From contig CANJNJ010000040.1 of the NCBI GenBank assembly GCA_947474995.1, forward strand, positions 1 to 37,815: a stretch of DNA of 37,815 bases, given 5' to 3'. How positions within the stretch are numbered: position 1 is the first letter of the stretch; every line of letters starts with the position of its first letter. This stretch comes from Opitutaceae bacterium (lineage in GTDB: Bacteria > Verrucomicrobiota > Verrucomicrobiia > Opitutales > Opitutaceae). The translations under genes were made by a program, and so were the position numbers. Positions 21,394 through 23,367 of the stretch are shown piece after piece. A model generated the notes under the pieces. It was given only the letters and a program-made list of their open reading frames with translations, did no database searches and was not told the origin of the DNA.

Positions 21394-22584
21394 TTGTCTT
21401 CCCTCTACCAGGTAATTGCCCGCAAGTGGCGGCCCCAGACCTTCGACGATGTCGTGGGGCAGGATCATGTCGTGCGGACCCTGAAGAATGCGATTGCGCG
21501 AGGCCGGATTGCCCATGCCTACCTGTTGGTCGGACCACGCGGTACGGGCAAGACCTCCACGGCCCGGATTTTTGCGAAAGCGCTCAACTGCACGGGTGGA
21601 CCCAAGGCGGATTTCGACGTCAACGATCCGGTGTGCCAGACGATCGCGAACGGCTCGCACCTCGATGTCATTGAGTTCGACGCGGCGTCGAACACGCAGG
21701 TGGACAAGATTCGCGAGGCGATCCTCGATTCGGTCGCCTATGCCCCCGCGTCGGCGAAGTTCAAAATCTACATCATCGACGAAGTGCACATGCTTTCGGC
21801 CGGCTCGTTCAACGCGCTGCTGAAGACCCTGGAGGAACCGCCGCCGCACGTGAAATTTGTTTTCGCGACGACCGATCCGCAGAAGCTGCCCCTGACCGTC
21901 ATCTCGCGCTGCCAGCGCTTTGATCTGAAGCCCATCCCGAATGAGCTGATCATCGCCCGGCTGCAGAAAATCGCGGTGGCAGAGAAAATCAAAATCACCG
22001 ACGGCGCGCTGGCCTGCATCGCGCGGCTGGCGGATGGCGGCATGCGCGACGCCCAATCCTTCTTTGACCAGATGATTTCGTTTTGCGGCAACGAAATCGC
22101 CGAGCCGGACGTATTGGATGTCTACGGGTTGGTGGCGGCGGACAAGATTGCCGCGCTGGCCGCAGCCCTCGCCGCGGGCGACCACCGGCAAATTGTCGCC
22201 CTGGTCGACGAATGTGACGCCGCGGGCCGCGATCTGGTGCGGTTGCTGATCGATTTGCAGGCCTTGGTGCGGTCGGCGTTGCTCGATGCGATTGCCCTCG
22301 GCGGCCAGAGCGAGGCCTTGAGTGGACCAGCCGGCAAGGGTGCTGGAGCCAATGCGATGACGACCGAGCAGTTGACCCGCCTTCTCGATGGACTGCGGGA
22401 AGGCGAAGGCAACGTTAAGCTCGGACTGGCGGAAAAGATTAACTTCGAAGTGACCTTGTTAAAGGCCGTCGAGGCAAGTCGCGCGCGCGCGATTGACAGC
22501 TTGATCAAGGAACTGGCGGCCCTGGCCGATGAAGTTCCGGCGACTGGCCCAGCCGCCGGCGACGGTGAAAAAAAAAAGGGCTGA
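21394..22584 (+). CDS. dnaX: DNA polymerase III subunit gamma (zero-frame product of dnaX)
   Basis: A 396-residue AAA+ clamp-loader subunit, loading the sliding clamp during replication. It starts [19 protein letters not shown], has Walker A GPRGTGKT (47-54), Walker B IIDEVHML (DEVH 129-132) and the SRC sensor (171-173). Of the four zinc-module cysteines usual in DnaX only C66 and C81 remain. The zero frame ends KKKG-stop right after a run of ten A (22568-22577); a -1 shift or one extra A opens a further 139-codon frame, so this product corresponds to gamma and the shifted one to tau. Start is TTG at 21394; no ATG fits the conserved N terminus. Confidence 0.92.
22568..22577 (+). promoter_or_regulatory. 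A10 slippage/frameshift site in dnaX
   Basis: Ten A residues followed by GGG, read in zero frame as GAA-AAA-AAA-AAG-GGC-TGA. It contains the heptamer A-AAA-AAG in the same phase as the E. coli dnaX frameshift signal. A -1 shift, or RNA polymerase adding one A, joins gamma to the tau extension. GGGCTG (22578-22583) can pair with CGGCCC (22617-22622), a possible downstream stem. No upstream SD-like stimulator is seen. Confidence 0.8.
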
Positions 22585-22994
22585 TTGATCGCCTGGAGTC
22601 GCGGCTGAGAGCGGCGCGGCCCGTCGCCGTTTCGGAGCCAAGCGAATCTTTGCCCGCCGAAGCCCTGAAGCCGACGCCGCCCGAGGTGCCCGGCGGAAGC
22701 CCCGCGACCAAGGACGTGGGCGAGAGCGAAAGTATCAACGCTTGGCCTGAAGCCACCGCCGAGGCGGAGTTCCTGGCGTCGGCGCAGGCGACCGGCGAAA
22801 CCGTGAAGCCGCCGGCCGCCGTGACCGTGGCCGTGGAAGTGGAGTCGAGCCCGCTGCCGGCGCTCGACGATCTGGTTCCGCGGATTCCCGCCGACGTGCG
22901 CGAGATGCTGGATGATCTCTTTCGCGTGAAATTTGTCAGCGTCCGGCGAATTTCAAAGCAGGCGCTGGCCCACTCGCCCGCCAAGCCGACTTGA
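22575..22994 (+). CDS. dnaX: Tau-specific C-terminal extension of DnaX (reached by -1 shift)
   Basis: In the -1 frame 139 codons stay open from the A-run to TGA at 22992-22994, giving a tau of about 533 residues. The extension begins [17 protein letters not shown], has a Pro/Glu/Ala-rich linker, and ends in a folded-looking segment [20 protein letters not shown] followed by KFVSVRRI. Third-position GC and amino-acid make-up are those of coding DNA, and no stand-alone start with a ribosome site is seen. In other bacteria the tau tail binds polymerase alpha and the helicase. The alternative is a frameshift mutation or assembly error in the homopolymer. Confidence 0.75.
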
Positions 22995-23007: not shown

Positions 23008-23367
23008 CTATTTCGTCCAGACCGCCCCGAGGTCGGTCCGGCCGGCGACACTGCGCAGGTAAAAATACGCTTCCAGCTCTTGATCCGCGAAAGGAGGGAG
23101 CAGTGACACGCCCCTTCGCTGGTAGAGCCCTTCGGCCAGTCCTTCCAGTTCGTCGAGCCGCGCCAGACACTCCGCATCGACCGACCAGACCTCGCCGGCG
23201 ACGCCGTCACGATCGCCGGCGTGCGGGACCATCCCGGGATAGCCACCGACTTCGAAGAGCCGAAAGCCCGGGGTGGTGCGGGCCTCGCCGACAAATTTCT
23301 GCCCGGCGAGAAAGTGATGGTTCTTGTCCCCGCGCTTGAGGGTGCCGTAGACAAAAATCAAGGCCAT
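23008..23367 (-). CDS. Gamma-glutamylcyclotransferase-like (YtfP/AIG2 family) protein
   Basis: A 119-residue protein with the family signature VYGTLKRGDKNHHFL at its N terminus (the YGTL loop binds the gamma-glutamyl group) and a conserved acidic region LARLDELEGL, which holds the usual catalytic glutamate. Members release 5-oxoproline from gamma-glutamyl amines or peptides, or act in cell-envelope metabolism; the substrate cannot be predicted. ATG 23367. It lies 15 bp downstream of the PP2C gene on the same strand, so probably co-transcribed, and its end is only 13 bp from the convergent dnaX end. Confidence 0.85.
   Translation of the reverse strand: MALIFVYGTLKRGDKNHHFLAGQKFVGEARTTPGFRLFEVGGYPGMVPHAGDRDGVAGEVWSVDAECLARLDELEGLAEGLYQRRGVSLLPPFADQELEAYFYLRSVAGRTDLGAVWTK

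Follow-up and report, generated by a model that had tools for sequence, protein, structure and literature searches.

The locus considered here raises the question of how one dnaX gene could supply two clamp-loader subunits when its reading frame breaks off at a run of ten A. The window, that is the whole stretch of 37,815 nucleotides of Opitutaceae DNA that was analysed, carries a zero-frame ORF at 21394..22584 on the forward strand, as are all the features given below; it has a TTG start and encodes 396 aa that include the clamp-loader ATPase, the lid and domain III. Its product scored 412.3 bits with TIGR02397 dnaX_nterm (cut-off 250) over residues 5-358, which makes it a member of DnaX; the Pfam domains found in it are DNA_pol3_delta2, DNAX_ATPase_lid and DNA_pol3_gamma3, and PDB chains named DNA polymerase III tau/gamma match it with a best E of 1.5e-80.

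The putative slippage run, A10, lies at 22568..22577, where the zero frame reads GAA AAA AAA AAG GGC TGA, and the TGA at 22582..22584 ends the product regarded here as gamma. In the -1 frame the letters of this stop are part of CTG ATT (Leu-Ile), and ATT GAT of the same frame holds the first +1-frame stop, TGA at 22586..22588, which closes the third frame after 5 codons. The -1 frame continues at 22578..22994 as the presumed tau tail, with a conserved C-terminal motif of 38 residues at 22854..22967 that served to locate the tail frame in relatives. An earlier note, made from the letters of the window, had described most of this arrangement correctly: the -1 frame is indeed open for 139 codons (138 sense codons and a TGA at 22992-22994), it ends 13 bp from the convergent ORF (which ends at 23008), and the run contains A-AAA-AAG in the E. 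coli phase. The zero-frame stop is just after the run, as that note held, but not three codons after it: one codon, GGC, stands between the codon of the last A and the stop. If the mRNA had 11 A, the common part and the tail would add up to a tau of ~533 aa.

From the window alone, it is not decisive that the A10 run is beyond chance: A8 gives 3 overlapping matches against 0.93 expected, and 12 of 100 shuffles reach 3. Across the source genome (5.24 Mb in 261 contigs, 96% completeness), A9 gives 14 matches on both strands, corresponding to 13 sites; the dnaX run is the sole site reaching ten, and the remaining 12 have a length of 9 each. A side observation is an A9 run within a long open frame at G000:C3:50997-51005 (L298), a candidate for a further slippage or phase-variable site; the local sequence around it is presumably FeoB-like.

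The split dnaX with its A10 run is confirmed as real, and not as a product of chance, because the run is conserved in relatives: an A9+ run was found in every one of the 161 family-level dnaX loci that extend as far as the site. A first set of 110 dnaX loci, 109 reaching the site, was made of 30 loci from a search of 150 family-level genomes, the window's own included (all matched, several only weakly, and these need not be dnaX), and of 80 from a scan of named contigs. In all 109 loci, or 97 once loci with the same flanks are counted as one, the run is A9 or A10, the zero-frame stop starts 1-7 nt past it, and the -1 frame is open; their tails end 105-233 codons from the run, with L015 at 90 codons cut by a contig end. 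The split A-run dnaX is shared by L092 (CP011265.1, titled complete genome) and by L106 (Geminisphaera colitermitum TAV2), and the nearest relative found, L003/L032, also has A10. In the larger family set, 82/82 coded and 79/80 named loci reach the site; L052 (contig end) and L002 (a distant second match) were dropped. Families are given as codes (f1 and so on), and the name Opitutaceae is taken from named records that share their sequence context with coded ones; two of the named records are titled Akkermansia muciniphila. AAA makes up 30% of the Lys codons in the gene bodies of the family, yet the run is kept.

Regarding the frame, the tail is in -1 in 136 of 138 distinct family contexts and in frame 0 in the other two, which have A11 and A12. 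The comparison with relatives that the earlier note had proposed thus returned no family locus without the run, and a continuous frame in only 2 of 138, both keeping a long run; it favours the proposal made there, namely that both subunits would arise by slippage with gamma as the zero-frame product.

As for the tail, it is conserved as a protein, judging by how its codons vary: over 35 aligned motif codons from up to 135 relatives, the entropy by codon position is 0.94/0.68/1.61 bits, and this third-position excess bears out its coding-like look. It opens with GLIDRLE in the majority of the loci in an 11-row alignment; a linker that varies leads on to the C-terminal motif, whose consensus is LPxLxxLVxRIPAEVRExLDELFRAKFVxVRRVPKxALK. 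The tail has no match in Pfam or NCBIfam up to E 1, nor in PDB up to E 10, so its equation with tau rests on its position and on fusions: in two same-family loci, L258 and L270 (A11 and A12), the motif is fused in frame to dnaX. On these grounds the tail is presumed to be the polymerase-binding part of tau.

The picture changes when the whole order is considered. Outside the family, 95 genomes were searched, 86 matched and were fetched, and 9 had no match at 1e-40; an A9+ run is kept in 71 of the 86 loci and missing from 15. Leaving unscored L172, L193 and L180 (contig ends) and L182 (two open frames), 67 loci from 20 families and 39 genera have the tail in frame -1 (27), 0 (24) or +1 (16), and their runs are A10 in 48, A9 in 15, A11 in 3 and A13 in 1. 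The longest, A13, occurs in L170 (G162:C106), which has its tail in frame 0. Further out, 48 loci were fetched of 120 matched outside the order, partly picked for short open frames and thus not a fair sample of class and phylum; in six of those from other classes of the phylum, L222-L226 and L232 (f61, f42, f54), dnaX is likewise split, with A10 and the tail in frame -1, and the tail motif of the family was not found in these 6 loci. With identical run contexts (60 nt each side) counted once, A9 to A13 is found at the equivalent place in 221 distinct loci, and it is A9 or A10 in 215 of them; because these loci were picked for having a run, the purity of the run was judged on the family set only.

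A FastTree tree built from the DnaX body of 215 loci (168 with frame -1, 31 with 0 and 16 with +1) requires at least 16 frame changes, and an IQ-TREE quick tree of 115 rows, of which 90 have a scored frame, at least 15. The family motif model places the tail in the open frame in all 165 loci with a match (51 had none); after three rounds of iteration, in which the matches of all frames were taken in, the two agree in 178 of 179 loci, with 37 lacking a match, and the matches are distributed as 149 at -1, 21 at 0 and 8 at +1. The odd one out is L182 (G236:C61), which has A9, two frames open for >115 codons and the motif in frame 0.

Two registers coexist inside 5 coded genera. Within one genus, L258 has A11 and frame 0 versus A10 and frame -1 in L261; within another, L133 has A10 and frame +1 versus A11 and frame -1 in L136. 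Same-genus pairs that differ by one A allow direct tests. L177 (A11) and L180 (A10) are identical in the 27 nt after the run, the contig of L180 ending in the tail. Most of the named loci being MAGs, the register changes seen in single genomes may include assembly errors; the frame states are not single-genome noise, however, because each of them recurs in genera with several genomes: +1 in g64 (five genomes), g79 (four) and g70 (three), frame 0 in g68, g78 and g50 (three each), and -1 in g80 (three). Two of the +1 loci, L137 and L163, belong to genomes assembled as one contig.

Where the run is lost, the tail is in frame 0: this holds for 6 of the 6 motif-bearing loci without an A9+ run, and the Fisher test of run versus frame gives p 3.6e-6, both count and test being uncorrected for relatedness. 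It was also observed that no A9+ run occurs in L204-L206 and L208 (f25), L203 and L212-L215 (f27), L201 and L202 (f7) and L207 (f6), and that these four families have small genomes, of about 0.8-1.3 Mb; among them, L202, L204 and L205 have the motif, in frame 0. Family f26, with small genomes as well, keeps A9 with a -1 tail, so that reduction is not a sufficient explanation for the missing run. In a different family, f8, L126 and L130 (genus g56) have no A9+ run and a continuous frame; g56 is the sister of g79, mostly +1, and the slippage site appears to have been lost or gained within this one family.

Whichever frame the tail is in, the other frames are usually closed soon after the run. 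Summed over family means, closure of both non-tail frames within 12 codons is found in ~24.8 of 29 families, with 5.2 expected. Within the same distance, loci with -1 tails have the +1 frame closed in 163/167 (58.3 expected from other places in the same tails) and the zero frame in 165/167 (42.2); those with +1 tails have the -1 frame closed in 16/16 (4.6) and the zero frame in 16/16 (6.8); and those with frame-0 tails have each of the other two frames closed in 28/31 (10.9 and 17.7). L182 and L277 were excluded from the stop distances; L277 is the exception, as its +1 frame is open for 83 codons, and with it the third-frame count is 163/168. In many family loci both stops are supplied by CTG ATT GA, where TGA occurs in two frames. 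Among the 82 loci that have the Leu-Ile motif, 66 encode the Ile as ATT, whereas gene usage would predict 14.6. A CTT codon for the next Leu is seen in 12 of the 15 loci scored when Ile is ATC, and in 4 of 66 when it is ATT (Fisher p 1e-8); this trade-off is only a hint, because it is not significant once relatedness is counted by pairing on the tree (median p 0.125).

In view of these data, it is very likely that a single dnaX yields two clamp-loader subunits through slippage of RNA polymerase on the A10 run, with a register that drifts. The polymerase would slip on the run and release mRNAs with differing numbers of A. Those with the templated 10 A would give gamma, of 396 aa, with its stop two codons on; those with 11 or 8 A would join the N-terminal part to the -1 tail and give tau; and those with 9 A would enter the +1 frame, meet a stop within a few codons and give a gamma-like product. 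As all three frames would be supplied by slippage, selection would keep the run, together with early stops in both frames that do not carry the tail, and would leave the register free; across the order, the tail would have shifted between the -1, 0 and +1 frames with the run retained. It is also likely, and stated with slightly less confidence, that dnaX throughout this order is a register-free slippage gene, in which a run of ~10 A and the stops are selected and the frame of the tail drifts among three phases; in that case, the frame of an essential replication gene would be close to neutral, since each frame would always be provided by RNA polymerase.

The genes bear the marks of slippage genes: a homopolymer of >=9 kept against codon usage, stops near the run in both other frames (with L277 as the exception), and a shift direction that differs among orthologues, a criterion found in PMC3711429. 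From the run, the split frames, the conserved tail, the early stops and the changes of register, all of them features of the sequences, it is inferred that slippage takes place, that it is transcriptional, that it sets a ratio between the two products, and that the tail would bind the polymerase. The mixed registers favour transcription over the ribosome as the level of slippage, and RNA-polymerase slippage is the best explanation because -1 ribosomal shifting of the E. coli type cannot serve the +1 arrangement, found in 16 loci.

That ribosomal process, a programmed -1 frameshift at A_AAA_AAG with tau as the shifted product, is an unlikely cause. The heptamer is present in 120 of the 168 loci with a -1 tail (105/135 in the family), the other 48 having different heptamers, and PMC5009743 mentions one reversed candidate, from Chlorobium phaeobacteroides, with potential E. 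coli-like signals. SD-like tetramers precede the run in 57 of 216 loci, about twofold the 28.5 expected from the gene body. Downstream RNA structure is not general: in 120 loci sampled of the 216, with mononucleotide shuffles, the mean z is -0.41 and z < -2 occurs in 11%; Rfam returned only sub-threshold matches, with E 0.53-0.89. Moreover, a -1 ribosomal shift needs no closed +1 frame, yet this frame is closed in nearly all of the -1-tail loci, as given above. The shiftiness of the E. coli site is ascribed in PMC5009743 to the sole tRNA-Lys of that organism, whereas the source genome of the window has tRNA-Lys(CUU) besides UUU among its 40 tRNA loci. Because of the excess of SD-like tetramers and the few strong folds, ribosomal help may nevertheless operate in some lineages.

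Sliding of the ribosome on the poly(A) of a homogeneous mRNA would reach all frames, and it has been described in E. coli on iterated AAA codons (PMC4363877); it is very improbable here, as the reporters of that study gave robust product at A11 and little at A9/A10, the lengths of 215 of the 221 runs. The idea that gamma alone is used, the tail being a separate or dying ORF, could appeal to the missing Pfam, NCBIfam and PDB matches, and is hardly credible for a tail that is conserved as a protein, with a third-position excess, and fused in frame in L258 and L270. Lastly, an assembly or sequencing error in a true genome that is continuous with 11 or 8 A, which the earlier note had named as one way to be proven wrong and which a 261-contig assembly might invite, has almost no probability left, since all 109 first-set loci, L092 and L106 included, share the A-run and the split frame, and L003/L032 has A10.

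With RNA-polymerase slippage as the preferred reading, the orthologues with their tail in three frames amount to a natural experiment, in which only an all-frame process suits all of them. They suggest that drift of the reading frame is possible in an essential gene whose slippage site stays conserved; in practical terms, reading dnaX in one frame misses the tail in these bacteria. It should be noted that the window gene, with its stop just after the A-run, its -1 tail and its conservation in relatives, belongs to the reversed type already published, so that a tau in need of recoding was known (PMC3711429). In the openly readable literature searched, no report was found of a +1 dnaX or of a drift among three registers within an order; the order-wide freedom of register is new as far as this search reached.

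Regarding known systems, the reversed type was described by Antonov et al. 2013 (PMC3711429) for 17 dnaX genes from 12 genera, in which tau depends on a -1 shift and nine of which have A10; transcriptional slippage was proposed, and a shift direction that differs among clusters was taken as a sign of slippage. The window gene resembles these in having two ORFs, a -1 shift at the DNA level and a tau that needs recoding. The main text of that paper does not contain 'Opitut', and its dnaX cases are described as -1 only, whereas here the arrangement is family-wide and its register varies across the order. A drift of the dnaX frame has a precedent in Blochmannia (PMC3017870), because related genomes differ there by a poly(A) indel, for which slippage was proposed as the cure; those bacteria are obligate endosymbionts with gene erosion, and the indel lies downstream of the gamma/tau site and is not reported there as a conserved site. 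Shigella mxiE (PMC1088944) likewise uses slippage to obtain the longer product, but on a U run and in an unrelated gene. E. coli dnaX (PMC3711429, PMC5009743) has A_AAA_AAG in the same phase and makes both gamma and tau, but with tau in the zero frame and gamma obtained by a -1 ribosomal shift with an SD-like element and a hairpin, neither of which is general here.

In the papers covered, support for transcriptional slippage in dnaX consists of experiment in Thermus and analogy elsewhere. In Thermus thermophilus, where slippage was shown by experiment (PMC1088944), dnaX has A9, nearby stops in the other frames and two products from one gene, as proposed for the window. The zero-frame product is tau in Thermus, whereas it would be gamma in the window, and the loci of the order that have a frame-0 tail match the Thermus arrangement.
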